Assembly: GCA_001687465.1 (NCBI GenBank)
Contig: LVLI01000338.1
Location: forward strand, 1-64,000
From: Halocafeteria seosinensis
Lineage: Eukaryota > Sar > Bigyra > Bicosoecida
Direction: 5' to 3'
DNA: 64,000 bases
Part shown: piece by piece, positions 1 through 58,640 of the stretch
Layout: every line of letters begins with the position of its first letter
Numbering within the stretch: position 1 is the stretch's first letter
The notes under the pieces: generated by a model
The model's input: the letters and a program-made list of their open reading frames with translations, nothing else
Told to the model about the DNA's origin: nothing
The model's database searches: none
Translations under genes and position numbers: made by a program

Positions 1-180
1 CCTACTACTTCCCAAACAGCAGAGAGGACAAGCTCTGTCACAGTTACTCCCGCTCCAAGTGAGACAGCCTCCCAGTCGAGAACAAGCAGCCACACTAGTA
101 CGCCTACAAGTTCTAAAACTTCATCGCCTACTACTTCTCAAACAGCAGAGAGGACAAATTCCGTCACAGTTACTTCCTCT
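1..180 (+). repeat. 126-bp tandem repeat in the stalk of A
   Basis: The segment encoding PTTSQTAERTSSVTVT at the left edge recurs from base 127 with few changes (PTTSQTAERTNSVTVT), giving a 126-bp (42-residue) period. The same period occurs in the stalk of protein D. Only one full unit and part of a second are visible, so the array may extend left. Confidence 0.75.
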
Positions 181-2247
181 CTCTGGGCTACGGGCACGAC
201 ATCTGATACGGCGATACCTCTACATACTGACACTCGGTCACCTGGCATGTCCAACAGTGCTTCATCCACTGCTACAGTTCCAATAGCATATAGCATTAAC
301 CCTTCTGTGACAAACAGTGGAAAACCTTCATCGACTGGCACACCTCTAAGCATCAGCACTCGCACACCTAGCATGACGGATGGTGAGTTCCCTACATTTA
401 CTTCGGCTGCTATGACATCTCCGAGCACAGGAAGTAGCACACCCAGGGAATCCGCCTCTTCGACTACGGTTGGACCGGATATGAAGACTAGAACGCAAAG
501 TCCCTCAGCTACGATAAGTGCCCCTACTCCGACAACACTGGGTACCGGACAGAGCACCACTAGTCCCAGTGAGACAAGGCTAATAGCGGCTACAAGGACA
601 GCTGAAACTGGTGTTCCTACGTCTACAAGCTCAGAAAGCGGAATAGTAGGCGGCAGCAGAACTTCTTCCCCCAGTGTCAGTGTATCCTTCACCGACAATG
701 GTCACACCAAGGCCGCTTCATATACCCAGCAACGAACAACTTCTATGCCGGTGGAGCGGAGTGGGACTGTTACAAGCTCGCTTTCGCCAGAACGCACAAG
801 GAGTAATACAATGAACGCTAGTCCGGTAACGTATTCACCGAGCTTGTCCGACACACCCAAAGAGTTCTCTCCCACCTCTTCGCAAACATTCCAAGGAATT
901 TATTCTGGAATTGTATCCAATTCTTCATACGTCAGCCCAGTTAATACGGGGTCGGATTGGCCATCGAGCTCGTTATCTAGTACGACGGCAAATCACCCAA
1001 CTCCTTCGGTTACCAAGACTGCGGAAGTGGAACGCAGTGTACTGCCTAGCTCGTTAGCAACAAGAACGCAAACGACGGCAACTGCTTCCATCATTTTCTA
1101 CGCCAGCTCAAGCAAGACTCCTATTGAAACCAAAGAGCACAATTCAACGTCACAATCACCTGCTGTGGATCTTACCCCGACACCAAGTGAGGAAGGCGAT
1201 AGCCTAGCGCCGTTATCGACTGCAGACGGAAAGAGCGAATTGAGTTCATTGCTACCATTAACTTCAGTGGTATTGTTGGTGACTTTGCTCATGTTATGTA
1301 TCATCTTCATCGTATATAGAAGACGACGCAACCAAAGGCAGACCAGGGTATTGAGAAATCCAGACTCAGTTTTGGCAAAACAGCTGGGGATTCCGATTGA
1401 TCAGCTTCGAACTAGTCAAGGTTTTACCTACACTAGCCACTTTAATATCCAGGGAGCCTCCGAACTCGCACTCGGGAGCGAAGCCAAGAGGGCAAAGCAG
1501 GCATCTATACAAGCTCACATGGAATCAAGTGTCACTTCGACGACGGCGTTGAATAACGGACAACTGGCATACATCAATCCTCTCGCCGGTACCGCATTAC
1601 CCCAAACCGCAGCGACCACAGAGCACAAGGATGATAGACGAGAAACTCGGAATAGATTTGCTCTTACTTCCCAGGAAACAAAGCAGAGGACGATAAGCGC
1701 TCAAACTCCTTCCAGCGTTAAACGAGGATCGATAGAGTGTCAGTCACCGATCTTCTTTCCTGGAGCTACAAGTCCCATGTCCTCAAAACAAGAGGTAGTA
1801 TTTGTTGACTTAAGCATGAAGGAGCACCATGCATCGAGCGATAACGTTCGTGTTGTTTCCGTGAACGCCCCGAAACTCGGTCATGGAGAAAAACGGACGC
1901 CGGCAAATAATAGACCTTTAGTGAAAGTGGCAATTGCGTCACAAGTCGACAAATCCAAGATGAATCGTATAGACCGCGCGAAATTGTCACTGCGCATCTG
2001 GAAGGCAAAGCTTCTCTCGGAACCGCCTCCTCTTATTGAAATCGAGATGACTGATTGCCCCGAAACGCCTTCCACTGAGTTCAAAAATACTGTGCAAGAG
2101 CGCCGGTTAGAATTCGCGAACTCAAGGATTGCCCAAAAAGGCGCTCTTTCGCCGGAAACTAAAGAGCATCACCAGAGTCAGTTGAAATTGGAATTGGCGC
2201 CAAGAGCAATATTCCAACCAAGATCAGTCAGAGCTAAACGTCGGTAG
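1..2247 (+). CDS. GLUG-stalk family surface protein A, 3' part (stalk, membrane helix, tail)
   Basis: The frame is open from base 1, so the gene starts left of the window; 748 residues are visible. Residues 1-410 are a Ser/Thr/Pro-rich stalk, probably O-glycosylated. A single hydrophobic helix (about 1246-1315) ends in YRRRRN, which predicts an outside stalk and inside tail. The tail has the family blocks: AKQLGIP, YINPLA, FVDLS followed by VRVVSVNAPKL, then KMNRIDRAKLSLRIWKAKLL with EPPPL, and ALSPETKEHHQ. The FVDL and APKL variants match protein D rather than E and F, so A and D form one subgroup. The head is outside the window; by analogy it would be the GLUG repeat domain. The tail is about 290 residues and ends KRR. 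Function is unknown; adhesion or recognition at the cell surface is inference. A decayed family member lies tail-to-tail 60 bp downstream. Confidence 0.85.
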   Translation, partial: PTTSQTAERTSSVTVTPAPSETASQSRTSSHTSTPTSSKTSSPTTSQTAERTNSVTVTSSLWATGTTSDTAIPLHTDTRSPGMSNSASSTATVPIAYSINPSVTNSGKPSSTGTPLSISTRTPSMTDGEFPTFTSAAMTSPSTGSSTPRESASSTTVGPDMKTRTQSPSATISAPTPTTLGTGQSTTSPSETRLIAATRTAETGVPTSTSSESGIVGGSRTSSPSVSVSFTDNGHTKAASYTQQRTTSMPVERSGTVTSSLSPERTRSNTMNASPVTYSPSLSDTPKEFSPTSSQTFQGIYSGIVSNSSYVSPVNTGSDWPSSSLSSTTANHPTPSVTKTAEVERSVLPSSLATRTQTTATASIIFYASSSKTPIETKEHNSTSQSPAVDLTPTPSEEGDSLAPLSTADGKSELSSLLPLTSVVLLVTLLMLCIIFIVYRRRRNQRQTRVLRNPDSVLAKQLGIPIDQLRTSQGFTYTSHFNIQGASELALGSEAKRAKQASIQAHMESSVTSTTALNNGQLAYINPLAGTALPQTAATTEHKDDRRETRNRFALTSQETKQRTISAQTPSSVKRGSIECQSPIFFPGATSPMSSKQEVVFVDLSMKEHHASSDNVRVVSVNAPKLGHGEKRTPANNRPLVKVAIASQVDKSKMNRIDRAKLSLRIWKAKLLSEPPPLIEIEMTDCPETPSTEFKNTVQERRLEFANSRIAQKGALSPETKEHHQSQLKLELAPRAIFQPRSVRAKRR

Positions 2248-2309
2248 CTCGTGATAAAAAACCTGCAATGTAATATCACTGACCGACCATACGTTTGTTC
2301 TATGTTAGA

Positions 2310-4027
2310 TTAGTTCCTGTGCGACTTTGATTTTAGGAAAATTTTCTTCTCACTAGCCGTCGGAGGCAATGTAGGGGTAAACTCTTTCTTGGAAATGCTC
2401 CCTCGGTTCATGCTTTCTCTTTGACACTTGTTCTCTTCTGCTTCTACTGAGATGTCTTTCCTCATCTCACTTTTACTCATTACAAATGCTAGGGTTTGAG
2501 CACGGGTATAGACTTGCTGCTTTTGGCTTGCTACCAGTAGGAGATCCCTCTGGGCGCTTTGGTAGTGTGCTGAAATTGTAGTGAATCTCGGGATCGACAC
2601 TGACTTGTACCAAAGGAGCAGGTCTGGCCAGAACTTTCGACTTCCATAGGGGCCAGCTAAGCCTTACTTTATCAGCAAACCGCATTCCGGTATAGTCCAG
2701 ATTGGAAGCCGATAGCAGACAGATTGGCTGGTTGTCGTCTGTGCGAATCTTGCTTTTGCTTTTGTGTCCACAGATATAACGGACATATTGCTCACGATCT
2801 TCGACGAAATCCGCGGATCCACTATGTCCACTCTTCCGTCGCCAGAACTGCTGGCTTAATAGATAGCGCTTTCCCGTGTCACTGCTTCATTATCTGAGGC
2901 ACGTGTATTCAGTGGATTGGCGCGATCAGACGTTGGTGCATTTCCAATATCAACTTGGCTCGAATGAAATTCCAGTTGCACTGTCCCCTGGGCTGATACT
3001 GGTAGAATTCTAATCTGATTGAGAGATAAACCAAGTTCAGCCGCATACATTTCAACAGTATTGGTGGGCTACTTTTATCTGTAATTACCCACACTTCGGA
3101 GGACCATTGTGTACGTCCACTGATTCGTAGAGTTTCCCTGTTATATCGCCAACATCTGCGGAATTTCCTGTTGTTCGTCAGACGCAAGACTCCCACCACT
3201 ACCAACCATGGGATCTGAGTATATAGAGTACCTGACCTCAAACGACTGCCTTCCAGAAAATATGTGCCCAATAAGTCCGCCAGAGCCTGAATCTAGGAGA
3301 GAGCCTGCAGCATAGCTGTTCTTTATTCTAACGGTGCCACTGTCTTCTCCTGTTCCGAAGCCACAGATTCCTCCTACATCCGCTTGTTCACTACTGCCGA
3401 TGCCTCCAATAGAGGAGCAGCGAAAGATATTAGGTAGGTTAAATCACCGCCCACGATTCCTCCTGAGCGGTCGTCAGTCATCTTACCTTTTGATGACGAG
3501 TAACTGATATCAATTTCACCGCCATTCTGGGCACATCGCCAACCACAGATTCCTCCACTGTATTCACCAGAAATTGTCCCACTCGAACTGGAAGAATGCA
3601 CTTTGATGAACTTTTGTTCAGCGCGAACGAGGAATCCTGCTTCTCTATTTGTGGCTCCGTTTAACATATGAACGTGAAGAATGAGAGGTGCTTGGTCTTA
3701 GGAGTCAACGACGTCGCTAATGGCGATTAATCCCAAGAAGTTTTCGATCCCCGAAAGGTCTCTAGTTAGTTTTTCCATTTCCCTCGAAGGTTTCATCCGG
3801 TCGAAGCAAAATGTAGTGTTCATCCGACTATCCGTAGTCTGCCCATCTGAGAACGGAGCAGTGCAATTGAAATAGTTTCGTCTCTGGGCTATACGAAAAG
3901 CATGGCTCCTGGTCGTCTTGAATGGCCGATCAGTGCTCGCACCGGTGGCTTCCTCCACAGACGGTAGTAAGAACCAATAATATACCGAGAAGGTCTGGCA
4001 CCCTAATTGAATGGTATTTACTGCCAA
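2310..4027 (-). pseudogene. Decayed GLUG-stalk family gene
   Basis: On the minus strand the family layout can be followed through several frames. From 4027 there is a decayed leader and cap with LTRDLSGIENFLGL. Near 3667-3290 come GLUG-type repeats (GTISGEYSGGICG, RSGGIVG, a further GGICG and GGLIG). Near 3250-3060 is the end cap, containing a stop. At 3050-2856 the tail begins with YAAELGLSLNQIRI, followed by RFADKVRLSWPLWKSKVLA (2685 down) and finally GSISKKEFTPTLPP (about 2390-2360). The frames do not join and the Ser/Thr stalk and membrane helix are absent or deleted, so no single product is possible. It is a relic of a full-length member facing the opposite way to A and B. Confidence 0.8.
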
Positions 4028-5498
4028 TTATCACGGAACGCATTCTTTAGAGGGTCAACGTGGTGCACCTTGTGGCTGGAACCGACTTGCTCTTCAGGTC
4101 AGGTGCAAAGGCACTTTGCTGGGAGGGGAGCCAACCAGTGGTCTCCAAAGTTTAGAACTCAACTAGCAAGCGCATCCACAATCAGTCGACGCTGCCAAAA
4201 GAGAAAAAAAAATTAACTCAATGGAGGACAATGATGCTCGAATCGAAGTCCAGTTCCTTGTCGATAAATCCAACGGTAACTTTTCCCAGTGCGCAATCGG
4301 GACAGAAGAACGCCTTGTGGTTTTATTTCAGGGTGAAAAATGTCCCGGTGTTGACAGACGAGGTATACAATGCCAACCTTCGCTTGTTTTTTCCTTGTGT
4401 GCCTTCTCGACGTTCAATACAGTCGTGGAGTCGCACGTGATCGCACGGAGGAATCTCCAATGGCCCGTTGTTGGCAACGGGTGCAATACTGTAATTCCAC
4501 TCCAGTGATAACTTTGATCTGGAATAAGGTATCTTCTGTCAGTACCGGACTGTCAAGATTCTATTCGGGCTGGGGTCCGAATGGTACGTGGCTTCGATCA
4601 TTCCGTACGTCTTTGGAACTTCCAATGGCACCCGTTCTCACCACCCGAAGGCCCAGCATTGAACCATCCCTTGCGGTGGTTATTTTTGTATGGGCAGCCG
4701 GGGCAGGTAATAGTGCCTGTCGAACATTCAGTGCAGCATTCCATAGAAATGCGCACAATGTGCTAAAACGCAAGACGCTTTGCGTTTTAGTTATTGTCGA
4801 ATGTCTTGTTCCTGTCGCAACAGTTACAAAAGTGATGGGTCTACTCTCCAAATTTCCCTTTTCTGGATGATCTCTGACTCTGGAAGGCCCGGAACTTCGA
4901 GGGGTGTATTTATGTATTGGGTATTCTCCCACCAGCTCTGGCGCTGGCGAGGTAATCGACAAGAATTCCAGAGTTTATTGGAACTGCCGCAGTGGTATCT
5001 TCAGGCATGGAAATGCCAACGGAGACCAGGCCCCACTCAGTATGCACAATTGACCACATGCCCTTCGTGATTCTTCAGGATTCACATTGAAGTTACCATC
5101 GCCGTTCAGAACGTTTCCGCCAATTTCCGACTGCTTCAACGGGCTTTGAGCCTCGATAAAGTGTCAATTGTTTCGTTTGGTTGACTCCCAGAATTTCGAA
5201 TCCATCGATACTCTCACATGGTACAGGGTTTAAGAAGAAAACATCCAGCCGGGCCACCTTGCGATAAGTCACCACTCTTTTTTTGAGCTGAAATTTGTCA
5301 TTAGAGACGGAACAGAGTTAGTTAGACGCTCCTGCAGAAGCCCACTAAGCAGCGATAGATACCCAAACGACAAACTTTGTGCGTCTTTCTCGCATTTTGC
5401 AATCTTATCATACCTTCCAGATCTAGAGGCGGTCTGGAAGAACGTTCTAGTCCCGGAATCCCACTACCAGCTGAGCTACGTCTGGCATCACTGGCCCT
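4028..5498. other. Intergenic stretch, nothing recognised
   Basis: No reading frame here resembles the family or any protein I recognise. Short overlapping frames occur on both strands (4221-4508 +, 4370-4870 +, 4561-4962 -) without motifs. The stretch may hold an older relic. A tRNA-like D-arm sequence sits at 5464-5479 on the minus strand, without a convincing T-arm. Confidence 0.4.
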
Positions 5499-8225
5499 AT
5501 GGTAAAAATGGGATTATACAGGAGATCTATGAGTTATGATGGTCGTCCAAGGACGGGCAAAAAACCAGCTTGCTCAACCCGATACTCGCACCTCTATGGA
5601 GTGTACGTAGGCATTACTGCAGCGTTGGTATCCTTAGCTCCCGTGGAGTCCGTAGTGACTTTCCCTAATGCGGTTTTGAAGGCCTTCCTCGAGCACACCA
5701 TTGATAAGACACCTCGAAGCCAAATCCTTTGCTCTGCTGAGAAAACGGTGCTCCTGCCTGGCAACTCTACGTTGACGGCCGGCCATGAAGACAGAAGCTG
5801 GGCTGAAGGGCCCTTGGCGGTTCTGCGACAGGGTCGATCACCTACGGCTTGTCAGGAACTCTTGCAGGGAGCTGTCAACGCAGTTGATGTAACAGGAAAA
5901 GAGCTCTTTCCTCTAGAGCACCGGGTTTCTCCGAGTTGTTTGGTAGCCGGATATGCCCAACTGCCATTTTCTTTGTCTCTCTGGTTCCGTTTTGCGCTGC
6001 GTCTGGTATACTGGAGTATTGGAGAGAAATGTCCTCATAAGAACATCATTGATGTTGTACTGCCTTGGACTTTCTGGACAGGCAAGCTTGGTCGAAGTGT
6101 GTGCACTCGTGCCAGGAATTACCACACAGTACTAAGCTTTAACGGATACTACATAAGAAACTGTGTCAATACGGAGCGTGGAGAGGGTTACTGCATTCGT
6201 GAAATACTTCCGGTAATATGCGGGGGGAAAAGACTTCGAGGTACATGCGCAACCCACATCTATAAGTGTATGATTACATCACATTCGTTGGAAACAACCA
6301 AAACGGTCAGGATACGTGGAGAACTGGAGACAAATTACGTGCTACTACGGAGGGCTAACATTACAAATGTCAATAGCGCGGCCTCCACGCGAAGTTCTGA
6401 TACCTTCTTGGAAACTATCCAATCATCATTACAAGGGGAAGTTCGTCGTTCCTCCGCTGTCTGGATTGACTCCTGGAGAAAAACTCCTGTACAATCCTCT
6501 TCTTCCCGGAAGTACGATAGTATTGGCAAAGCGCTCGTCAATCGGCAAGGTAGTAAACTGTCGACTCCCTTAACATGTGATTTTCGGTGGCTTAATTCTC
6601 GGGAATTTGCTTCAGCACCAACAATAACGCCCAATGATGAGCTAGAATATTTGCTGGATCGAGAATTGTCTGTTTCGTGGATGTCTATCGCTTCAGCGAC
6701 AAGTACTCGCAGGCATAAAGTGACAGTTGGATTCCTCCTTCCATGGCTACTAGGATTAGCTATGTTGCTCAGTCCGTCAGGCATCTGGAATAGCAGATGT
6801 AAGAGGGAGCAAGCCCATAGGAAGCGAATATTATGGTTTCGAAACTGGAGTGGCGCATGTATGGGTTCTAAAACCAAACTCGGAGCTATTTCTCTCACTA
6901 TCCTTATCATGTTGGCATGGATCAGTGGAGGGAGTGACTTACGAAGCAGTATTATAGAGGGAAGGGAACCGTGCTTTGCGCATAACCCGGATGCTAAGAT
7001 GTTCCAGATAAAGTGCAGTCGCGTGGAATGGAACACCGAGGGTTACGATGCAGAGACGTTTATTTCTCTGGATGCATTGGATACATTTGATGGTGGTGGG
7101 AACATCATTGACTTAAGTGGAGTCAGAGATTTTAGAGGGTTATTTACAATTATAAACATGAATGTGGTATCGTTTCACGAAGCCCCCGTCATTCGGAATA
7201 TTCATGTTATAAATGGAGACACTGCAGTAGGAGGTGGATTTATCGTTCAACAAAACCAAAGGCATTTTTCAGTTGACTCATGTAGCTCATCGGGGGAGAT
7301 ACACTCGAAAAGCGGAGGCATATGCGGTGCTAGGTGCGGTCGCGATAACGGCGAAATCGAGATACTGAATTCTTATTCAACCGGGACAATTAACGGCAAT
7401 GATGCTGGTGGTATCGCAGGACAAGCTACTGGACAAGGTGGTGGAATGGTCCGGATCTCCCGGTGTTACTCCACAGGTAGAATTAAAGCAGCTTGGGCAG
7501 GCGGTATCTGTGGTGACGAAGCTGGGCATAGTAGTGAAGTGCACATAACACAGTCGTATTCGATGGGGAGTATTGACGGTGAAGGCAGTGGTGGTATATG
7601 TGGTGACGAGCCAGCACACAGCAATGGCGAAGTACATATCAGTGATTGCTATAGTCGCGGAGCGATTTCCGCAGACCAGGCCGGAGGCATTACAGGAGCG
7701 TCCACGGGAGGCCGAGGCAGTCCACCCTCGGGAAGTGTATATATTTCTAGGACTTATGCTTCCGGTGCCCTAACAAATACCGGAGCTGGTGGATTGATTG
7801 GTAATATTGGCACGGGAGCAACCGGCACCATCAGCGTAAGACATTCCTTTGGTAGAGCAAGTATTGTGGGAAAAGATCTCGGCAATCACTTAAGAACGTT
7901 TGGTAATTCTCACTCCTTAGATGATATCCGAGAGAGACTAATTCGGGAGCGTGAAATATGGGTTGTTGCTGGAACCGATGAGCTACCCATTCTTCGCTTC
8001 CAACTCCCAAGTTTATCCCCAACCCCCTCTCCAACAACTTCAGCCACTCCTACAGCTACCAAAGCAACATCAAATTCACCGACAACATCGAGGACAGCTT
8101 CAAATTCAGGAAGTAATACGCCTTCATCCACCCCAACATCTACACCTACAATAACACCATCCAACTCGCCACATGTGTTTGGGACCAGGAGAGTCTTACC
8201 AGTACAACGACCCCAGAGGGTGTAA
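5499..8225 (+). CDS. GLUG-stalk family protein B, lacking membrane helix and tail
   Basis: The frame is open from ATG 5499 for 908 residues. Residues 1-390 match nothing I know. Next come two hydrophobic segments (TVGFLLPWLLGLAMLL and LGAISLTILIMLAWISGG), then the family cap starting SDLRSSIIEGREPCF at about residue 480, six GLUG-type repeats (GGICG, GGIAG, GGICG, GGICG, GGITG, GGLIG) and the end cap ELPILRFQL. The stalk is only about 65 residues and stops at PVQRPQRV, with no membrane helix or tail. Internal ATGs at 6681 and 6861 would give a protein starting just before the first or second hydrophobic segment; 6861 (MGSKTK) gives a textbook signal peptide. I keep the longest frame but think the true start is probably 6681 or 6861. 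The product would be secreted or held by its N-terminus. It may be a truncated allele rather than a working gene. Confidence 0.65.
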   Translation: MVKMGLYRRSMSYDGRPRTGKKPACSTRYSHLYGVYVGITAALVSLAPVESVVTFPNAVLKAFLEHTIDKTPRSQILCSAEKTVLLPGNSTLTAGHEDRSWAEGPLAVLRQGRSPTACQELLQGAVNAVDVTGKELFPLEHRVSPSCLVAGYAQLPFSLSLWFRFALRLVYWSIGEKCPHKNIIDVVLPWTFWTGKLGRSVCTRARNYHTVLSFNGYYIRNCVNTERGEGYCIREILPVICGGKRLRGTCATHIYKCMITSHSLETTKTVRIRGELETNYVLLRRANITNVNSAASTRSSDTFLETIQSSLQGEVRRSSAVWIDSWRKTPVQSSSSRKYDSIGKALVNRQGSKLSTPLTCDFRWLNSREFASAPTITPNDELEYLLDRELSVSWMSIASATSTRRHKVTVGFLLPWLLGLAMLLSPSGIWNSRCKREQAHRKRILWFRNWSGACMGSKTKLGAISLTILIMLAWISGGSDLRSSIIEGREPCFAHNPDAKMFQIKCSRVEWNTEGYDAETFISLDALDTFDGGGNIIDLSGVRDFRGLFTIINMNVVSFHEAPVIRNIHVINGDTAVGGGFIVQQNQRHFSVDSCSSSGEIHSKSGGICGARCGRDNGEIEILNSYSTGTINGNDAGGIAGQATGQGGGMVRISRCYSTGRIKAAWAGGICGDEAGHSSEVHITQSYSMGSIDGEGSGGICGDEPAHSNGEVHISDCYSRGAISADQAGGITGASTGGRGSPPSGSVYISRTYASGALTNTGAGGLIGNIGTGATGTISVRHSFGRASIVGKDLGNHLRTFGNSHSLDDIRERLIREREIWVVAGTDELPILRFQLPSLSPTPSPTTSATPTATKATSNSPTTSRTASNSGSNTPSSTPTSTPTITPSNSPHVFGTRRVLPVQRPQRV

Positions 8226-8938: not shown

Positions 8939-9640
8939 TTATTTTTCCTGAGTTGCAAGACTCATCGACGACCCTTGTGCTTGGGAGCGAAGCGTTGCGG
9001 CCGTCAGTCTGGAAGAGTCGCCTTGCTTTTTTGCGGTTCCTCGAAGCACGCTTGGATCAGTTGAGTAACACGATTTAACGATTGTGGTCTGGGTCTTCTT
9101 GGTGTAACGTGTCTTCATATGAGGCAATGGAAGGAAATCTGGGTTCAACGACGGCGATTGTCTTTGGCTTCGCGTAAATAGCACATTCCTCATGCTGCCT
9201 GGATGTCGTCGTCTCTTCAGACAATCACTTTCGGCCAACTCCTTCCCTCTAACGCGTCCGCTCCGAGGAGACGCCACCCGTGATCCTCGCAGTGGGTGCC
9301 GATGTGCTGCTTGATTTGCAGACAACATTTTCAAGTTGGATTCTTTTGCGGAGACGAATGGCGTATTAGCTGAAGTTAGGTGTGGTCATTTCGAGACAGA
9401 AAGTTCCGGGAAAGGGCGCTTGGGAAGTAGCTAAAGTCCACCGCCATTGAATGGGGGTCGACACTTTGGGTTTGCTCTATTTTTCGATTTATTGCTGCCT
9501 CCAGGTCGACGGTAGCCAGTGCTAGGTAGATGTCTAAATCCTTACGGTATTTGGGCTGAGTGACCCTAAGCTTTCGCTGCCATATATCATTTAATTTGAT
9601 AGGAAAATCTTTTGGCACACCACTGGCAGGCAATGTATTC
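8939..9640 (-). pseudogene. Relic of a D-type cytoplasmic tail
   Basis: The minus-strand frame at 9334-8939 aligns with the last 130 residues of D: KMLSANQAAHRHPLRG against LRMLSANQAKHGHQQGG, then a KRRRHPGSMRNVLF block and DPSVLRG, ending near TLRSQAQ. Upstream, at 9633-9376, a frame with KLNDIWQRKLRV and ATVDLEAAINRK resembles the LRQWKAKLL block and its follow-on, but is frameshifted. No stalk, membrane helix or head is found further upstream, so this is an isolated decayed 3' end. Confidence 0.7.
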
Positions 9641-47067: not shown

Positions 47068-47122
47068 TCAGGCTTCTATTGGTGCTACTATCCACATTAT
47101 TCGGCACACCGCAGTTAGCCCT

Positions 47123-48484: not shown

Positions 48485-51400
48485 ATGGCTGTTGAATCAA
48501 TCGTTATATATTTCACCACGTTGGCAGCTATGTTGATACTCCCCGGGAAATCGCTCGCTCAAGACTCCGATGATTTGCGAGACAGTATCGTAGACGGCAA
48601 TGAAACTTGTTTCCAGTATTTCCCCGCTGACAATCTCTTTCGGATGACCTGCACTGTGCTCAACTGGAACACCAGCTACAGCAATGACGATGACCACACC
48701 CACATTACGCTTAAGGCGAAAGAGACATTTGATGGTGGTGGTCGTGAAGGAAATATCATTGAGTTGGGGGACACTCAAAGCTTCCCTGGATTATTCCGGG
48801 GTGATAATGACATCGGATCTTTGGATGAGGCTCCGTTGATTCGAAATGTCCATGTCAAGAATGGGAAAACTGCATTTGCAGGTGGATTTATTGTTCAACA
48901 AGATCAAAAGTATTTTGTCGTGGATTCATGTAGCTCAACAGGAGAGATCACGGCTGAGCATGCTGGTGGTATATGTGGTAAGGCGGGTGGCGACGGAGGC
49001 CACATTACAATATCGAATTCCTATTCGACAGGGACAATACAGGGTGGATTTGCAGGTGGTATCGCAGGAGGAGGTGTAGGATCCTATAGTGGGACTGTGA
49101 ATATCACCCAATGTTATTCCACTGGGACAATCCGGGGATACTCAGCAGGTGGTATCTGTGGGGACAATGCTGGTCATGAGAAAGGTCTCGTGTATATCAC
49201 GCAATCGTATTCCACAGGAACTATTCCGGGGGACCATAGTGGTGGAATTACTGGATATGCTCCAGCGCTTAATGATGGTGAAGTACATATACAAGATTGC
49301 TATACGCGAGGACATATTGCGGGTGATACAGCAGGAGGGATTGCTGGGGCATACAGAGAAACAGGCAAAGTATACATAACAAATACGTATGCTTCCGGTA
49401 TCGTCCACCATCAAAATAGTGGTGGAATCATTGGAGAGATAAATGATATTGCAAATGGTGTCCTCAACGTAAAATATTCGGTGTATAATGGCTCGAATGG
49501 GGCCCCTTTGGTCAGAGACGACAACTCCCACGAGGGTGTCTTGAACACGACAGGCATTTCAAACACTTTGGATGATATACAGGGTCAACTGTATCATTTT
49601 AAGGGCGTCCAGAAATGGGATAATGAAATCTGGGCTCTCAATGGCGCGGATACTCTGCCCATTTTGCGCTTTCAATTGATGCAACCACTCGAGCCTGTTG
49701 CAACTGTGGAGCCAAGTCCTTGTGTTGAAGCCCAACCGACATCCCAACGGACACAATTATCGCCCGCAACTCCGGCAGGTACTCCCTCTTCGCCTTCCGC
49801 TCCTGCTGACTTGCGAAGTAGGATCCAAAATGGGAACGAGCGTTGTTTTCAGTATTTGCCCGACGAAAGTCTTTTTCGAATGACGTGTACTGTTCTCAAG
49901 TGGGAAACCAGTAGGTACGATAGGAACACGCACATTAAGCTCAAGGTAAATGAGACATTTGATGGTGGTGGTCGCAACGGAAATATCATTGAGTTGGGGC
50001 ACACTCACGACTTACTTGGATTATTCCGGGTTGAAAATGATGGTGATGACATTGAGTCATTGGATGAAGCTCCGTTGATTCAGAATGTCAATGTCAAGAA
50101 TGGGCGCATTGCAGAAGGTGGTGGGTTTATTGTTCGAGAAGACCAAAAATATTTTATCGTGGACTCGTGTAGCTCTACAGGGTTGGTCACTAAGCATTAT
50201 GCTGGTGGTATATGTGGTCGTCATGCGGGTCGCAACGGAGGCCACATTAAGATATCGAATTCCCACTCTACAGGGGCAATACAGGGTAAACATGCAGCTG
50301 GTATCGCAGGAGGAGGTGTAGGATCCCACAGTGGGACTGTGAATATCACCCAATGTTATTCCACTGGGACAATTGGAGGAACTCATTCAGGTGGTATCTG
50401 TGGGGATAATGCTGGTCATACGAATGGTCTCGTGTATATCACGCAATCATATTCCACAGGAACTATCGACGGGAAACAGAGTGGTGGAATTACTGGATAT
50501 GCTCCAGCGCTTAATGATGGTGAAGTACATATACGAGATTGCTATACGCGAGGAAATATTGCGGGCGATACAGCAGGAGGGATTACTGGGGCATACACAG
50601 GAACAGGCAAAGTATACATAACAAATACGTATGCTTCCGGTATTGTCCACCATCAAAATAGTGGTGGAATCATTGGAGAGATAAATGATATTGCAAATGG
50701 TGTCATCAACGTAAAATATTCGGTGTATAATGGCTCGAATGGGGCCCCTATGGTCAGAGACGACAACTCCCACGAGGGTGGCTTGAACACGACAGGCATT
50801 TCAAACACTTTGAATGATATACAGGGTCAACTGTATCAGTATAATGGCGTCCAAAAATGGGATAATGAAATCTGGGCTCTCAGTGGCACTGATACTCTGC
50901 CCATTTTGCGCTTTCAGTTGTCCCAATCGTCAAGGGAGCCGAGCTCAACTCCAAGCGCCATGCCGACACCGACGCCGACATGGACGCCGTCTGAGACACC
51001 TCGAAGAACTCCTACTTCATCGAGCTCATCGTCCACCACAGTCACTCCTACATCGTCTTGGAGTGCAACACCGAGCTCCTCCACATCTATAACGCCGTCT
51101 GAGACACCTCCAAGAACCCCGACTTCGTCGAGCTCATCGTCCACCACAGTCACTCCTACACGATCTTGGAGTGCAACACCGAGTTCCTCCACATCTATTA
51201 CACCTTCCGGAACCGCTTCGCTTTCGAAAACTCCAACATCAGCGAGAACTCAGAGTCCCACAACGAGTGTTTCGAGCTCCATGACTGTTTCTATGACTAT
51301 TTCGCCGTCCAGCTCGACGTCGCGAAGTCGGTCGGCGAAAACTCATTCTGCCACTAAAAGTCCTACTGAATCCAGCTCAACCACGTCCACACCATCGAGC

Positions 51401-52963
51401 TCAGGTTCTGGAACGGTTACCTTTACAACGAGTTTCTCTAGTTCGATAGCGCCCTCCGTAGCTACGAATGCAAGCTTTACTCCGAACATTCCACCTCAAG
51501 ACTCTCCTGCTGACGTGTCAAAGAATTCAGACCCAATAATGTCCGGAGTGGCCCAAGTCGGTTTGTCGTCCGCGGTGTGTTGCATGGCACTCATTGCTCT
51601 GATTTTCATTGTATACCGGCGCCGAAGGAACAGCTATATGACCAAGCGGGCTGATGACCCGAAGGAAGTGTATGCAGCTCAGTTAGGAATACCCTTGGAT
51701 AATGTCAAAGTTATGTCACAGGGAAAACATGGCGGTGGCAATTTTCAGATCCACACCCTTGGTGCTAGCTTCAGCCGTGCGGATGCATCCGTCTCAGAGC
51801 ATGGGGAAAACAAGGAAGCACATATACTCTCCAAAAATCCAGATGGTGAAATGATGGAGGTAGCTCATGTAAATCCTTTGGATTCCTCGCAAAAGCAGGC
51901 AGAATATCACGATTCACCTTCCTGGGATCAGCACAATATATCTGAGAAATTCTCCCTCAATAAGGGAACTGTTCACCGAAGAGACCTACGCAGAATCGAT
52001 GAGTGCAATGCTAGAGTGGCCAAAGATGACGCGAGCACGGCCTATGCGACCGTTGCTGAGGGTGCAAGTAATGGGATCGAAAAGCTAGGAGCTAGCAACT
52101 TTGCTGCTGAGGAACAAGCAACAAGTTCCATCGTCACTCAGAATGAGAATTTATCCGAATTCGAGCTGGCCAATATCAACCCACTGGCTTCCACTGCACA
52201 GCGGCAACAACCTCAACACGAAAGGGGATTCTCCGATCCAGCCCAGTATACATCTCAAATGTTCTCGCTGGCGCAGAAGCAAGCTCATCGCAGAGCCGTT
52301 GGACAAGATGCGACGCCACATGTAGATGCTGGTGTTGTCCAACCTGGTGCACTGATAGCTGGCGAAGTGTCATCTCCGTCGACTTCAGTGGGCAAACCCC
52401 AAGTGATGTTCGTGGAACCAGGCGCACAGAAAGCGTCGACGGATAAAGTTCGAATCGTTTCCGCTGCTCCGCCAAACCTGCAACGTGCTGATAAAACGAA
52501 GTCCCACGATGGGACATCCGTGGTTAAGGTTGCTTCAGTAGTGGATCTTGATACCTCGGAGATGAAACGCATCGACCGTATGCGGCTTCAGCTGAGGCAA
52601 TGGAAGGCTAGGCTGCTGGCGGAACCCCCACCTCTTGTCGAAGTGGAAGTGAACGATTCATCGTCTGCACAAAGTAGCGCAGGGCTCTGGAAAACGACCG
52701 CTGCTAATCGGGACTGTGGTTCCAGTACAGCTGTTGCTCAACTGGATTTTGCGAAGAGGGATATTCATAACACACGAAGCATGCTCTCTCAAGAGGCGAA
52801 GCAACACCGCCGCCGTAAATTTGAGATTGGGTATGTGTCGAAAAAGGAATTTGCCCCTTCATTGCCTTCGCAAAATTCTAGTGCTTTGGGACGAAGCGTC
52901 TCTTCGTTTTCCGGGAAGAAAACTGTCGCCGTTGGCTCACGTCGAGCTCGTAGTAGGCGTTAG
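47123..52963 (+). CDS. GLUG-stalk family protein F, tandem heads
   Basis: The frame is open for 1946 residues from ATG 47123. Residues up to about 450 hold two decayed but in-frame leader and cap remnants. The working part begins around ATG 48485 (MAVESIVIYF), a good signal peptide before DDLRDSIVDGNETCF. Head 1 (48572-49700) and head 2 (49808-50930) each have the cap, six GLUG-type repeats and LPILRFQL; their repeat sections are nearly identical at DNA level. The stalk (50940-51520) has two 108-bp units. The helix (GLSSAVCCMALIALIFIV) ends YRRRRN. The tail is longer than in E, with two NPL blocks (HVNPLD, NINPLA), then VMFVEPGA, VRIVSAAPPNLQ, VKVASVVDLDTSEMKRIDRM, LRQWKARLLAEPPPL and KKEFAPSLPS. 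The start is uncertain (47123 or 48485). It is intact over the core and closest to E. Confidence 0.85.
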   Translation: MIHCRSGRVFVVNREMSRLVLTTEPLPANCAFRNSTPSGMKPCFPYFPNGKLFQTTRTVLRLEAHNYEADISFDAKKAFDDGKGIENIIDLKDLPRGSSEWLSAEADKALSAGPQGSSAAGRNVLSTASIGKVMAFPSMSVAYTSGDWSFISSEGESHYAAHSFPVVYPLLILLSTLFCAAQLANILIMSCVDYNYHHQYRSSSASANELGIESRWKGMVGRGIDRISSSSKKLKRRKIRSYMYSTKSIIQTLLCLSTLSIWVWNPVDANDLYKDIVDGEGACLQQVLIDHLFTHLKWEDQKYDADTQVSVKIGETSDGDGRVGNLIGLGENLLHYFKATLLLPEARLAVENDVRTRESLSAGTGIHYGTCSSRGGRAIPVPQIGMGVILSAAYLFISATILLDGYPKESGPRCVGDYHRTSPSICLYGKEEEISGLNLVCSGKRRRSKLQARQMAVESIVIYFTTLAAMLILPGKSLAQDSDDLRDSIVDGNETCFQYFPADNLFRMTCTVLNWNTSYSNDDDHTHITLKAKETFDGGGREGNIIELGDTQSFPGLFRGDNDIGSLDEAPLIRNVHVKNGKTAFAGGFIVQQDQKYFVVDSCSSTGEITAEHAGGICGKAGGDGGHITISNSYSTGTIQGGFAGGIAGGGVGSYSGTVNITQCYSTGTIRGYSAGGICGDNAGHEKGLVYITQSYSTGTIPGDHSGGITGYAPALNDGEVHIQDCYTRGHIAGDTAGGIAGAYRETGKVYITNTYASGIVHHQNSGGIIGEINDIANGVLNVKYSVYNGSNGAPLVRDDNSHEGVLNTTGISNTLDDIQGQLYHFKGVQKWDNEIWALNGADTLPILRFQLMQPLEPVATVEPSPCVEAQPTSQRTQLSPATPAGTPSSPSAPADLRSRIQNGNERCFQYLPDESLFRMTCTVLKWETSRYDRNTHIKLKVNETFDGGGRNGNIIELGHTHDLLGLFRVENDGDDIESLDEAPLIQNVNVKNGRIAEGGGFIVREDQKYFIVDSCSSTGLVTKHYAGGICGRHAGRNGGHIKISNSHSTGAIQGKHAAGIAGGGVGSHSGTVNITQCYSTGTIGGTHSGGICGDNAGHTNGLVYITQSYSTGTIDGKQSGGITGYAPALNDGEVHIRDCYTRGNIAGDTAGGITGAYTGTGKVYITNTYASGIVHHQNSGGIIGEINDIANGVINVKYSVYNGSNGAPMVRDDNSHEGGLNTTGISNTLNDIQGQLYQYNGVQKWDNEIWALSGTDTLPILRFQLSQSSREPSSTPSAMPTPTPTWTPSETPRRTPTSSSSSSTTVTPTSSWSATPSSSTSITPSETPPRTPTSSSSSSTTVTPTRSWSATPSSSTSITPSGTASLSKTPTSARTQSPTTSVSSSMTVSMTISPSSSTSRSRSAKTHSATKSPTESSSTTSTPSSSGSGTVTFTTSFSSSIAPSVATNASFTPNIPPQDSPADVSKNSDPIMSGVAQVGLSSAVCCMALIALIFIVYRRRRNSYMTKRADDPKEVYAAQLGIPLDNVKVMSQGKHGGGNFQIHTLGASFSRADASVSEHGENKEAHILSKNPDGEMMEVAHVNPLDSSQKQAEYHDSPSWDQHNISEKFSLNKGTVHRRDLRRIDECNARVAKDDASTAYATVAEGASNGIEKLGASNFAAEEQATSSIVTQNENLSEFELANINPLASTAQRQQPQHERGFSDPAQYTSQMFSLAQKQAHRRAVGQDATPHVDAGVVQPGALIAGEVSSPSTSVGKPQVMFVEPGAQKASTDKVRIVSAAPPNLQRADKTKSHDGTSVVKVASVVDLDTSEMKRIDRMRLQLRQWKARLLAEPPPLVEVEVNDSSSAQSSAGLWKTTAANRDCGSSTAVAQLDFAKRDIHNTRSMLSQEAKQHRRRKFEIGYVSKKEFAPSLPSQNSSALGRSVSSFSGKKTVAVGSRRARSRR
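48572..50930 (+). repeat. Direct duplication of the whole head of F
   Basis: The two heads start at 48572 and 49808 (offset 1236 bp); by the GLUG repeats the offset is 1242 bp, for example the same phrase at 49441 and 50683. The caps have drifted, while the 49140-49680 and 50380-50920 sections are almost the same base for base. That uneven divergence suggests gene conversion or a partial later exchange. Confidence 0.9.
50984..51199 (+). repeat. Two 108-bp tandem repeats in the stalk of F
   Basis: Units starting at 50984 and 51092 encode TPSETPRRTPTSSSSSSTTV with a SSWSATPSSSTSI end (36 residues). The headless copy upstream (45960-47067) carries one diverged unit (TPSQTPPKTSTSSSSPSTTV), so the unit predates the duplication of the two genes. 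Confidence 0.88.
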
Positions 52964-53356: not shown

Positions 53357-54152
53357 GTGAACTGCAAGTGTACACCCGCTGGATTCTCAGCCGAGCGCAG
53401 AACACGGCGAAAACGTGTAATCAACATATTATCCTGTCAGTTGGATAAAGGGCTATCCGATATAGAGCTGGCTAGCATTTATTCACCCTATGGTATGTCA
53501 AATTTACACCAAGCTCAGTACGAGAGCAGAGTGGAGAGGCAAGCCTCACCTTCAGGTCGGGATACATCTCAACCTACTCGCTGGCGAAGAACCATGTACC
53601 TAGAAGTTTACCTGGTAATGATTCGAAGCCATGCGTAAGCCGTAGTATAGTACAAGGCGGTACACCGGCAGATGTTGTAGAGGAGGCAAAGCGGCAGAGA
53701 GGAGTCTCCAAGTTGTCCTCGTGGAACCTGGCTCCCAAGCTACCTCTGCAGATAAAATCCGAATCATTTCCGCTTATATGCACGATGGAGGTAACACTAA
53801 GTCCGCAATGGAACCAGGGTTTAATGTTGCCGCTGTAGTTGATCTTGATACAGCGGAAATGAAACGCATCAACCGTAGGAGGCTGCAAGGCTTCTCGCGG
53901 AACTGTTATCTCTAGTGAAGTTCGAAGTAGATGGAAATCGCAAGAAGGACTGCTCCTAGTTCAACATATTCTATTGCTAGCAGTGGAGCTGTCGCTCAAA
54001 TAGGCCTTGCGAAACAGAAACCTCGTCGGAAGCATGACATTGGGTATGCGCCGAAGAAGGAATTTGCTCCTCGGTTACCTGCACGGAGCCCCCATTCCGG
54101 ACACAGCCTCTCGATAGTCCCCAAGAAAAACAACGGCAAAGTCTCGTCGTGA
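53357..54152 (+). pseudogene. Relic of an F-type cytoplasmic tail
   Basis: Three frames in order cover the tail of F. The first has GLSDIELASIYSPYG (against NLSEFELANINPLA) and TSQPTRWRR. The second has MEPGSQATSADKIRIISA and NVAAVVDLDTAEMKRINRRR. The third has IASSGAVAQIGLAKQKPRR, HDIGYAPKKEFAPRLP. Frameshifts separate them and the LRQWKARLL block is broken by a stop after RNCYL. It lies directly after F in the same orientation, consistent with a tandem duplication of F whose front part was lost. Confidence 0.82.
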
Positions 54153-54429
54153 ACGTGATAGGAATCGAGCCGCAAGAGGTCGAAAACTGTCGCTTGGTGG
54201 TCAACATTTCTTTTTCTCTTAGACCCCTCGCCGTATACCGTATGCATGCATCATCCGCAAACTGAAGCAATTCCAGAAATATGTAATCTTTCAATAAACC
54301 ACTGTTTTCTACCGTCCGTAGGAAATTTGGTAGCTGATAGGTGGCACGTTTGGAAACCTGCTATGTATAAGCTGTACGGGTGTCGATCCGGGAAAAATAA
54401 GTGGACTGTACTTTCCCTACCTCATCGAT

Positions 54430-56214
54430 CTACGGGTATATTTTGCACGACGTCATTGGCAGCCTCCTTGTTAGTCTGTTTCCTTGTGATGTAGCGGTAG
54501 TATGGCCGGAAGAATTAGCACGCGTCTCATTGCGAGTCGGAGTAGGAAGCATAGTGGGTAACTGTCGCATCTGGAAGCGAAGAATTGGTAGGGAGTCACT
54601 TCCATTCGGAGTCCAAACACTCTCGTTCCACCGTCGGGTACCACTAAAACTGTACAGTGTGCCACGAATTCCCGCTAGATTGTCAGAATTTCCTATAGGC
54701 ACCAGATTCTGTCCAGCGTCTTTCCCTACTATTGGTGCCCCCTCATTGCCTCGGTACACGGAGTACTTCACGAGAATATCACCTGAGGCTGTCTCAGGGA
54801 TTTGGCCAATAAGACATCCACCATTGTGCGACGCAACAAAGCCTGAAGCGTAGCACTTTGTTAAACGCACATCTCCGGAGGCGGACAAGTCGCCGCCGCC
54901 AGTGTGGCTTCCTGTAATTCCTCCGGCTTCTTCGCCCGTAATATTCCCCACCGTGTAACAGTCTGTGACGTGGACATCTCCATTGTTCATTGCTATAGTA
55001 GCCCCAACAATACCACCACTGTGCTCTCCTGGGATCTCCCCAGTACTGAAACACTCTTTGATGCGTACAGTTCCTTGGGACTTTCCCGCTCCTGCACCCA
55101 CTATTCCTCCAGTTCCACATCCTGAGGACACCGCTCCAATTCTTCCAGTTGAAAATGATTCATAAATGTCAATGTGACCGTATCGTTCACCGGCCGAAAA
55201 TCCACAAATTCCACCAGCGTCCTGCCCTTGGATGTCTCCTGTAGAAAAACAGCGCTCTATGGTGGCCATGCCCCGGAAACGTCCTGTATGACTACCGATT
55301 ATTCCACCTGCATTAATACCCACTATATGTCCCGTGGAGTGCGAGTTCACCACCTTGATCCGGCCCCCATCGGAGCCACATTCCCTTCCGCAGATGCCTC
55401 CTGCTCCATCATTTGTTATTGCTCCGGAGGAGCTGCAGGATTCCACAACGAAAAATCTCTGATGTCTTTGGAATATAAAGCCACCGTGCGATGCAGTTGT
55501 ACCATTCTTTATATGGACGTTTCGAACAACGGGTGCCTCTGCGAAGGAAGCTACGCTTTTAATTCTGAACAATCCTTCAAACTCTGTAACAGTGTGTAGA
55601 TCGATAGTGTGTCCCGCTCCTTCAAAAGTCTCATTGGAACTAAGGGAAATATAATCATCGGCTTTGTACCGTCTACTCCATAATAGCATGGTGCAGTTCA
55701 ATTTGAACTCCTTACGGCCGGGGAAAAACTCAAAGCATCGCTCAAACCCATGTATAATGTTGCTTCTCAAGTCCGTTGGAGCCGCCGATGCCGTGAGTAG
55801 ATCAGACGCGGATACAACCAATGTTACAAGAGGCAAGATTATTGACCTTCTGGGTTGCACTAACGTAGGGGTGCATCGCCTCTGAAAATGCTTGACGCAA
55901 TCGTTCTTTCTCCCCTTCTTCTGCCAAAGTTCTGACACCAGTTTCCGAAGTTGAAAAATTCGTGAAACGAGCCCTTCCGCGCCACCACAGCCAGTGCAGC
56001 CATGATACATGCCAATCAATCCCAGCAACAGTAGTACCAGTGTCGTTGTCTTTCTGGGAGATGGATCGTCTTTGCCTTGTTTTGAGAGAATGACACAGTC
56101 TCCGATGCTCCGGAGCGGAGCAGTTCGTAATTTACCACTGCTTCCCCAGCGCATGCTGGTGGTATTGCTCATTGCGATGGTGCGGTTTCTAATTTTCGTC
56201 TGGGAGGTTATCAT
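54430..56214 (-). CDS. GLUG-stalk family protein G, anchorless short form
   Basis: 594 residues from ATG 56214. The leader contains a first hydrophobic segment (TTTLVLLLLGLIGM) and, about 75 residues later, a second (SIILPLVTLVVSASDLL) immediately before PTDLRSNIIHGFERCF. The cap has FEGAGHTIDL, EFEGLFRI and VVRNVHIKNGTTA. Seven GLUG-type repeats follow, one more than usual (GGICG, GGIIG, GGICG, GGIVG, GGIVG, GGITG, GCLIG), then the end cap SLPILRFQM. Only about 45 residues of stalk remain before a stop at SCKIYP; there is no C-terminal helix or tail. No ATG lies next to the second hydrophobic segment, so the first segment should be translated. The product is secreted or anchored by the first helix. 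It points toward the F-tail relic, tail-to-tail. It could be a truncated allele, but the head shows no damage. Confidence 0.82.
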   Translation of the reverse strand: MITSQTKIRNRTIAMSNTTSMRWGSSGKLRTAPLRSIGDCVILSKQGKDDPSPRKTTTLVLLLLGLIGMYHGCTGCGGAEGLVSRIFQLRKLVSELWQKKGRKNDCVKHFQRRCTPTLVQPRRSIILPLVTLVVSASDLLTASAAPTDLRSNIIHGFERCFEFFPGRKEFKLNCTMLLWSRRYKADDYISLSSNETFEGAGHTIDLHTVTEFEGLFRIKSVASFAEAPVVRNVHIKNGTTASHGGFIFQRHQRFFVVESCSSSGAITNDGAGGICGRECGSDGGRIKVVNSHSTGHIVGINAGGIIGSHTGRFRGMATIERCFSTGDIQGQDAGGICGFSAGERYGHIDIYESFSTGRIGAVSSGCGTGGIVGAGAGKSQGTVRIKECFSTGEIPGEHSGGIVGATIAMNNGDVHVTDCYTVGNITGEEAGGITGSHTGGGDLSASGDVRLTKCYASGFVASHNGGCLIGQIPETASGDILVKYSVYRGNEGAPIVGKDAGQNLVPIGNSDNLAGIRGTLYSFSGTRRWNESVWTPNGSDSLPILRFQMRQLPTMLPTPTRNETRANSSGHTTATSQGNRLTRRLPMTSCKIYP

Positions 56215-56904
56215 ATATACAGCTTTGCAGAGTCGTATAGATGCGTCAAGCGTATTTTTCCAGAAGGGCCAGCCGTTGACCAACACTCAACGGTTCTCGT
56301 TGGGGTATGAGGGCGTATACTTTGTATCCAGGTCCAAGGACACGGAACAATAATGGTTAAGCTCATGATACCTTTGAACTCGATCAAGTCGACATGTTAT
56401 GTGTGTGTGTTCATTAGGTGCCCCGCTGGCCACCCTAGAGTCTGAGTACAGACGCCGATGGACAACAATCAATCTTTTGACATAATGGTATGACCCAAAT
56501 AATTATGAAAGCTCCAAATGGCATGCCAGTATGAGGATTGTACCTCTTGATGGTTTTAACTTGAGCATGAGTGATCTCGATTGAATTCGAATGTCGTTTT
56601 CCTTCTTCGATTCCACGATCACTCTTCTGCGGAATTCACGGAAGGCGCAGGGTAACTCACAGGTGAGGTACTGGAATTTTTCTGCGGAATTCACGGAAGG
56701 CGCAGGGTAACTCACAGGTGAGGTACTGGAAGTTCAGTGTGGGCCCTGATTGACAACGGTACTACGTCGTTACGGTAGTATGAAGATGTTGACGAGTTTG
56801 TTTGTTGGTGATGGTATTTTTTCCTTTGAAACATAAACAGAGAGAGTCGCGGTGGGAACTGTGTCTTCCAAAAGCATACGGCCAATGACCCAAACTACAA
56901 GGAC
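56215..56904. other. Intergenic stretch upstream of G
   Basis: Contains a 55-bp direct duplication (56625-56731) and no recognised gene. Confidence 0.4.
56625..56731 (+). repeat. 55-bp tandem duplication
   Basis: The segment starting TTCTGCGGAATTCACGGAAG at 56625 is repeated at 56680, matching base for base through GAGGTACTGGA. Two copies only; non-coding as far as I can see. Confidence 0.92.
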
Positions 56905-57085
56905 AATGGAGAAGACCTCAATTGGGATGACAAGCATGTAAAAGGCATTGCGAATGCATTGCAGGTCGATATTGCATTGAGGAATATTGATTTAAACAAT
57001 GGGTAATCACCGATAGTGGTGCTCAATATTTGGCGAATGCCCTGAGGGAAATGCTCCAGCATCACCTCTTTTATTGCGGACACAC
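56905..57085 (+). pseudogene. Relic of a leucine-rich-repeat gene
   Basis: The plus frame reads NGEDLNWDDKHVKGIANALQ and VDIALRNIDLNN. After a one-base frame change it continues ITDSGAQYLANALREMLQ. Together these match the ribonuclease-inhibitor type repeat (GxxxLAxALxxNxxLxxLDLxxNxIxDxGAxxLAxAL). A stop and a frameshift fall exactly between the two repeats and no other repeats are visible, so it is a fragment. Confidence 0.65.
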
Positions 57086-58029
57086 TCAGTCAACTGCGCA
57101 ATTTACTGTCGTTGTTGCTGTCAGACTGAAGACTTAAACCAGTGAGTGACAGCAAACCAACTTCTTGTCGCACGACCCACGGCAGCATGCCCATTCTCGT
57201 GAACCAGGCAGCTAATACGCTTCATAGGTTCGTATCAGAAGGACCAATAGCACAAGCTTCTCCTGCAAACTACCGGTATGTACAAGATGCCCCAAATTGA
57301 ACTGGTCTTGAGCGTCGCACGAAACCAACCCCCCATAGTATCGTGATCCCACTCAAAGGATATTCTACTTGGCTGTACATTGTGACGTCTACGGGTTGGT
57401 CACAACTACAGCACACGACGGACCTCCTATGCCTGCCTGCACAGTTCTCCGTGCAACTGTGAACGAACTCGGTTCTTCAGTTTCGCCATCCTATGCATCC
57501 CGTCCCATCTCCATCTCCTGCTGCTCCCTGCGATCACGATGACCAACTTTGGCTCCCTGAATCTTGCTGGTACATACATTCAGGCAAAGACCCTCAAGAA
57601 GCTCTATAGAAGGGACAATCACTTCTTTCGCATAGTTTTCGAGCGCTCCAGTCTTTACAACACGTTGTCTCACTGCAGCACATATGATAAAAAGACTATT
57701 AGAAACGTCATGCTAAATGGACCGAGAAATTCATCATGCGTTGCGCGGAACCGACGCCGTTGACGCAACGTTTCGGAAGCTCCCGTTCCATACGCGGATA
57801 CGAGAGAATAAATTTAGGATCTTCTCTGAATATGCTCACGGTGAACAAACGTTCTACAGTCTACCTTCTGATAGTGCGCCGTTCAGCCTACTTGGTGTTT
57901 TGGGAGTGATCAACGATTCATTGGGAGCAAGTCCCGATTTGACTTGCAGAATCGAAGCATCTCAGCAAGATGGCTTCCAGTTTCTCGCCAAAGAAGAGCT
58001 GTTTGCGACAAACCATGCTTTTCCTAAGA
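57086..58029. other. Intergenic stretch, nothing recognised
   Basis: Small frames at 57491-57673 (-), 57539-57763 (+) and the start of 57717-58223 (+) carry no recognisable motif. Confidence 0.35.
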
Positions 58030-58640
58030 TCCACTGTCCTTCGAGACGAGTTTTCCTGTTCGCCAGAGAGATGATCCTTTTGGCGGTCACCACTAAACCG
58101 CTCTCAACAAACTGCGATTTAGACAGTGGTATCCCGTCTGTAACGAACCCAGTTTACAGTATTTTCCTAATGAGAAGTTTTTTCAAACGGCGGGTACTGT
58201 TCCCGGTCTCAGGACCGACTTGAAGGACGGACCGGAAGAGTCTAGCAAATGGTTATCCGTTGTAGGACGAAAGATATTGAGCACAGTTGCTAGAGCAACC
58301 TGATGGCATTCCTTTCTAAGTGTGTTGCCGATATGTCTGGCAATTGCTCCTCCACTTCGGACGAAGGCGGGCTTCACTCACCCCGGGTGGTATACCCTCT
58401 CTTGATATTGTTGTCAGCAAAACTCTGCGCCGCACAGCTGGCTAATACTTTGGTCAAGGGTCCTGTCGGTTACAGCTACCGGCCACCATTAGGGAATGAT
58501 TCTACATTAACTGAAATCGGAATTAAACGCCACTGGCAGGGGACGGTTGGTCAAGGGCCAGTGCGTAGAACGTGCCATGTCGGTCCGATTATAGGCGTCG
58601 CAGGGCGGACAATAAGAAAGTTTGGTGGAGGCCTATAGCG
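58030..58640 (+). pseudogene. Decayed copy of the leader region upstream of F
   Basis: DNA and protein match 47140-47800: SRRVFLFAREMILLAVTTKP against SGRVFVVNREMSRLVLTTEP, and RVVYPLLILLSAKLCAAQLA against PVVYPLLILLSTLFCAAQLA, followed by EIGIKRHWQGTVGQG against ELGIESRWKGMVGRG. Frameshifts and deletions occur between the blocks (for example the PCFPYFPNG part is disrupted). It ends at GGGL with a stop. It shows that the F upstream region was once duplicated about 11 kb away in the same orientation. Confidence 0.8.

Follow-up and report, generated by a model that had tools for sequence, protein, structure and literature searches.

What kind of gene family crowds the first 64,000 bases of a contig from the bicosoecid Halocafeteria seosinensis, and what do its proteins share? 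In this stretch (the window; part of contig C246, LVLI01000338.1, 70,095 bases, in an assembly of 30.6 Mb and 605 contigs) an earlier note had described seven intact or near-intact members and at least seven relics of a eukaryotic multigene family of surface proteins, each with a capped head of GLUG-like repeats, a Ser/Thr stalk, one membrane helix and a conserved tail. We located copies by tblastn against the window, with one head and one tail and then with 14 pieces, and recovered these members at their coordinates. Six open frames carry nine heads with a cap and GLUG-like repeats, a seventh at the left edge consists of stalk, membrane helix and tail, and at least seven copies are broken or partial, three of them scattered across more than one frame (Table 1). 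The copies match one another at up to E 2.9e-137, so their resemblance is not due to chance.

The family, its stalk and its link to GLUG are supported by our data, whereas the proposed common plan held in part. The LPILRFQL end cap, as LPILRFQ(L/M), closes five of the nine heads and is absent from the other four, which belong to the two long open reading frames (ORFs). The single-pass arrangement with RRRRN and a conserved tail describes ORFs 1-2247, 21873-29894, 42488-45505 and 46967-52963, but in 5475-8225 and 54430-56286 no hydrophobic stretch follows the head, and 10686-19706 ends in six hydrophobic segments. Aligned, the nine heads span 470 columns with 42 invariant positions.

A class of genes with a C-terminal tag

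The earlier note missed a second class of gene, which has no membrane helix after the head and carries a conserved C-terminal tag. This is a short basic motif close to the stop, behind a low-complexity stalk, of roughly the form [KR]..LP(A/V)Q(R/Y)PxR. A strict version, LP[VAIMT]Q within the last 60 residues, defined after the sequences had been viewed, was present in 27 of 43 genomic ORFs without a transmembrane (TM) segment. Eight of the 43 had been retrieved via the tag's own DNA pattern (seven strict hits); excluding these, the count was 20 of 35. The strict motif was also found in 3/17 transcripts with GECG accessions and 14/32 relatives from other sources, in none of four TM or multi-pass ORFs and in none of 144 other GLUG proteins. 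It begins 9–28 residues from the protein end; elsewhere it occurred nowhere in 59,544 residues of genomic non-TM ORFs, GECG transcripts and relatives, and once in 132,226 residues of other GLUG proteins. Forms in relatives include LPVQYPRRSV and TQLPVQRPRR. The second protein search for relatives used full-length, tag-bearing queries; a search with the head only gave the strict motif in 4 of 10 relatives. Several other non-TM ends resemble variants of the tag (INAPV..RC, SPQRPGR, APQRAKR), and further ends are truncated or tag-free.

Other results weigh against constraint on the tag. Among 12 close paralogs, with one outlier kept, the ratio of non-synonymous to synonymous substitution rates (dN/dS) was 0.54 in the last 20 codons, compared with 0.44 in the stalk and 0.40 in the head. 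A profile of 37 genomic ends matched seven GECG proteins, of which one gave a weak score (E 1.2), and no end of an other-source relative at E <= 5, so that conservation outside this genome is carried by the short motif by itself. A looser motif was also present in one of the four TM or multi-pass ORFs and one of the 144 other GLUG proteins. The exact tag DNA pattern gave 17 hits in the genome against 12 for a reversed control. Eleven of the 17 lay in or beside family copies; the other six fell within an unrelated ORF or within short frames open by chance, and we dropped the idea that the tag also marks non-family proteins. Intron read-through was likewise rejected as its origin, since five transcripts of tail-less genes stop where the genomic frames stop (P0004/L014, P0005/L015, P0006/L018, P0009/L023, P0014/L033).

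The motif is LPxQ rather than the LPXTG of sortase-type anchoring, and at a 19-residue hydropathy cut-off 21 of 26 family proteins had no hydrophobic segment after the head, such as would accompany that signal or form the C-terminal tail of a glycosylphosphatidylinositol anchor. In the remaining five the segment is the helix of the TM class, at least 100 residues beyond the head. Tentatively, the tag may be an undescribed eukaryotic sorting or anchoring signal, through which a dedicated receptor or transpeptidase-like enzyme would fix GLUG heads in the cell coat, parallel to the membrane-anchored class; a pull-down would be a straightforward way to look for the partner of the tag. A word search of open-licence literature that included a written form of the tag led to the Trichomonas paper (PMC2843621), whose available part did not show that form.

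The membrane class and a reading of both

Proteins of the TM class continue from the membrane helix into a basic run and a conserved tail with the blocks DPxxxYAxQLGIP, VRIVSxxAPxL and RLxLRQWKAKLLAEPPPL. Related tails occur in three proteins from other sources (P0124, P0139, P0145). The structure model of the tail is mostly of low confidence and best at residues ~170-210. This class makes up 3 of 47 distinct ORFs read to a stop codon, in a sample that favours heads like that of gene D (42488-45505) and in part genes fetched by the tag, and that drops long genes, so that class shares may not be representative of the genome. Twelve ORFs filed as other include tag-like ends, two truncated ORFs and the multi-pass ORF of the window; a gene on contig C30 and three head-bearing genes beyond the window ran off the fetched loci and fell outside the sample.

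With modest confidence, we favour a large family that evolves by birth and death and encodes cell-surface or secreted proteins whose heads serve recognition or adhesion. A leader would take the protein into the secretory pathway, and a stalk, probably O-glycosylated, would keep the head away from the cell. There the conserved scaffold would present variable turns as binding sites for ligands (glycans, or microbial or partner surfaces) for adhesion, feeding or recognition. TM-class copies would remain in the membrane, where the tail may anchor the protein or report contact, and tag-class copies would be shed, or retained in the cell coat via the tag.

The main rival is a structural coat, in which heads and stalks would be the building blocks of a scale, wall, cyst or extracellular matrix to which the tag attaches them, and turn variation is tolerated, not selected. 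The many copies without a membrane helix after the head (those 21 of 26), the tag motif in other-source relatives and the near-neutral evolution of the turns described below would suit such a coat. We nevertheless consider it unlikely: one class retains a membrane helix and tail, in other-source relatives too, and the two-head proteins, Cys-rich linkers and multi-pass member appear more receptor-like.

The family across the genome

The window had been proposed as a special clustered recognition locus, a claim overturned by copies throughout the genome, of which it holds one cluster. The head of gene D gave 191 matches at E <= 1e-5; 109 of 497 candidates were scored and part of the matches listed, and all genome copy counts are lower bounds. 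Among the matches listed, at least 109 begin at head residue 1–3, across at least 73 contigs. Two relatives used as queries added 24 places, for at least 133 on at least 85 contigs, five window heads not included. The tail of gene D gave at least 75 matches at no fewer than 60 loci on at least 30 contigs, 12 of these loci forming an array on C30; the single C30 gene read has a GLUG head longer than that of gene D. Separately, contigs C580, C525 and C359 bear multi-head open frames of 5,735, 5,356 and 3,273 residues.

A subtelomeric family was considered and rejected. Nine contigs with TTAGGG arrays (C8, C19, C102, C233, C276, C332, C348, C588 and C592) were not among the listed head or tail matches. 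One contig with family copies, C314, has a single internal 24-base TTAGGG match. Among 52 copies on contigs of known length no bias towards contig ends was found: the median relative distance was 0.43, and 16% of shuffles gave a value as low. Because the match lists are incomplete, the rejection is weak.

Structure and relationships of the head

The head is built of the cap and a stack of GLUG-type repeats, each of 31 residues; a beta-helix is predicted for it with high confidence, and a Ser/Thr/Pro-rich stalk follows. Its relationship to GLUG proteins, suggested earlier, is supported by sequence and by fold. Sequence searches with the family matched proteins P0170 (E 1.3e-65), P0174 (E 3.4e-59), P0074 (E 4.9e-38) and P0090 (E 1.3e-11), all of which carry precomputed PF07581. 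The Pfam model PF07581 itself scored at best 14.0 bits on window proteins, against a curated cut-off of 20.5, and matched 6 of the 43 members of our alignment A2 weakly (best E 0.026); the cut-off was reached at one genomic place only (L001, 25.4 bits). In a fold search with the head the top structural matches were IgA1 proteases (PDB 7uvk, 6xja, 3n6z), whose beta-helices we take to carry GLUG repeats; the family head shares the beta-helix fold of solved GLUG-bearing proteins.

The head could also be an enzyme, a beta-helix degrading algal or bacterial polysaccharides, a reading we consider improbable. The invariant residues of alignment A2 are glycines together with W33, L46, Y283 and W363, and the near-invariant charged or polar ones (D2, R4, E50, H96, Q114) lie in the cap.

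Of 31 ORFs, 26 have a hydrophobic 17-mer in the 55 residues that precede the cap, and it ends 2–17 residues from the cap; among blocks lying further upstream, 27 of 101 contain one. The leader of gene D falls below the 19-residue cut-off used in the survey of hydrophobic segments. Many family ORFs stay open far upstream of the head. Six of 14 long N-terminal extensions are mutually homologous, and in four of these six genes dN/dS was 0.80 in the extension versus 0.51 in the head. An 80-base gap between gene and transcript (P0009/L023) fits an intron. As a separate observation, five metagenomic proteins (P0017, P0024, P0028, P0160, P0175) pair cap/GLUG heads with a region of decapeptide repeats (PF25296), and others bear DUF4347 or Hint.

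Selection, relatives and expression

Across 23 full heads and that of gene D, the repeat serine and glycines are almost fixed and the turn positions most variable; among 153 repeat units the turns vary most, along with the first position of the strand. From 881 dependent pairs of units, pooled dN/dS came to 0.79 at turns, 0.25 on the strand face and 0.07 in the core. The core value is biased low because the unit search pattern itself fixed several glycines and residue classes; turn and most strand-face positions were left free. This pattern is consistent with a scaffold whose loop changes are either tolerated or selected, selection not being proven. Positive selection on the family was not shown by the dN/dS analyses.

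In a cap tree of 137 sequences, one clade unites 37 of 44 relatives and is separate from the 69 sequences of this genome; three clades that mix the two groups have support. This topology suggests that the family grew mostly by lineage-specific expansion. Eighteen relatives were at most 51% identical to sampled copies, and two searched against the genome reached 49% and 51% at best; the tested relatives therefore do not come from this genome. The copy closest to those two (C120:50209-51396, 49-51% identity) is not among the D-head matches listed. Scans of IMG/VR with P0024, A4, P0031, P0189 and P0032, which reach close relatives only, found no relative.

Six family transcripts with GECG accessions, from a EukProt set, align to fetched loci at 98.5-100% identity. 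One of them, P0002, represents gene D (99.8% over 42611-45502). The neighbouring WD40 gene showed a similar transcript-to-genome identity of 98.6%, so the transcripts come from this organism or one very close to it. A search with the WD40 gene led back to that transcriptome and to one distant protein; no cox1 match was obtained. By this comparison and the position-wise dN/dS, the label fast-evolving holds only in part.

Relics are frequent in the window and the closest viral fold found is in giant-virus proteins, as might be expected had transferred viral or bacterial heads multiplied as a spreading element without host function, many of them decaying. That account is very improbable, given that heads are under purifying selection (dN/dS 0.40 and 0.51, two small sets), family genes are expressed, and tail and tag are common to other-source relatives.

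Comparison with known systems

The GLUG fold is known from bacteria and archaea, and structure comparison places it in giant viruses too. The family shares with GLUG and IgA1-protease beta-helices the GG-I-x-G and S-x-G repeat signatures and the fold, but adds an N-terminal cap, an end cap, a Ser/Thr stalk and a membrane tail or C-terminal tag. Over 349 columns the head aligns with Cafeteria roenbergensis virus proteins E3T4R2 and E3T4G7, compared by head only, at a TM-score of 0.67 (query length) and, for E3T4R2, 27% identity, raising the question of exchange or mimicry. Those proteins are named for a Hint domain, whereas this genome has no Hint_2 (PF13403) match and Pfam scans of six window family ORF regions found neither Hint nor any leucine-rich repeat family, TpLRR included. 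The pneumococcal (Streptococcus pneumoniae) surface adhesin PfbA (3zpp) was 10% identical over the aligned part, a relation of repeats or cap not being shown. The open-licence papers listed for GLUG, judged by titles and abstract starts, were prokaryotic or unrelated and none concerned a eukaryotic GLUG family, in agreement with the earlier note.

To our knowledge, the nearest described organisation is the BspA-like family of Trichomonas vaginalis. From the available part of its description, that family is very large and has a bacterial-type repeat head, with one class ending in a membrane helix and cytoplasmic tail and another that lacks the helix and ends in conserved C-terminal motifs (PMC2843621). 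Two C-terminal classes thus occur in both, a likeness of organisation only: the repeats are leucine-rich there and a GLUG beta-helix here, and the C-terminal motifs described there contain Cys, unlike LPxQ(R/Y)PxR (PMC2843621). If our reading is true, the family would be another eukaryotic counterpart of the large bacterial-type repeat surface families, on a GLUG fold, and would provide a repeat scaffold with fixed core and variable turns.

Features of the window

Table 1. Family genes and relics in the 64,000-base window.
Position	Strand	Feature	Details
1..2247	+	TM-class gene, 3' part (5' end outside window)	Ser/Thr stalk; membrane helix ~1258-1314, then YRRRRN; tail match 1309-2244
2593..3929	-	Broken copy	Head across three frames (3056-3929); tail fragment (2593-2829)
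5475..8225	+	Tag-class gene	N-terminal extension; hydrophobic leader ~6879-6935; head 6936-8006; short Ser/Thr stalk; tag LPVQRPQRV 8196-8222
8954..9502	-	Tail relic, two frames	
10686..19706	+	Two-head multi-pass gene	Heads 10881-12068, 12270-13442; short Cys-containing linker; long Ser/Thr stalk; further region; six C-terminal hydrophobic segments ~18153-19308
20268..20390	+	Relic, end of head	
21873..29894	-	Two-head TM-class gene	Heads 29555-28629, 28151-27159; Ephrin_rec_like Cys-rich repeats between; long Ser/Thr stalk; helix ~23204-23148; tail 23153-21876
42488..45505	+	TM-class gene D	Leader ~42734-42799; head 42800-43933; stalk; membrane helix ~44525-44581; helix and tail unit 44504-45502
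45961..47067	+	Headless fragment: stalk, membrane helix, tail	Tail match 46477-47040
46967..52963	+	TM-class ORF	Partial caps 47219-47404, 47933-48259; leader ~48485-48541; heads 48572-49678, 49808-50920; stalk; membrane helix and tail 51536-52960
53685..54149	+	Tail relic	
54430..56286	-	Gene without hydrophobic segment after head	Leader ~55845-55789; head 55773-54568; short Ser/Thr stretch; basic C-terminus RRLPMTSCKIYP, without strict tag
58023..58557	+	Relic resembling N-terminal/cap region of 46967-52963 ORF, three frames	

Partial caps lie upstream of, and in frame with, full heads both at 46967-48571 and at locus L011; the two in the window stop after the first 60–110 head residues. The 10686-19706 member carries its heads on a multi-pass protein, its stalk continuing into a further region, with six hydrophobic segments rather than one. 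Outside the family, two long minus-strand ORFs at 32488-40098 (WD40 with EF-hand; EF-hand) are spanned by a single 1,876-residue transcript, P0122 (38190-32491), and therefore probably form a single gene interrupted by a short intron or break. A large minus-strand ORF at 59423-64000, without a family head, has a weak match to Big_1 (bacterial Ig-like) and about nine hydrophobic segments.
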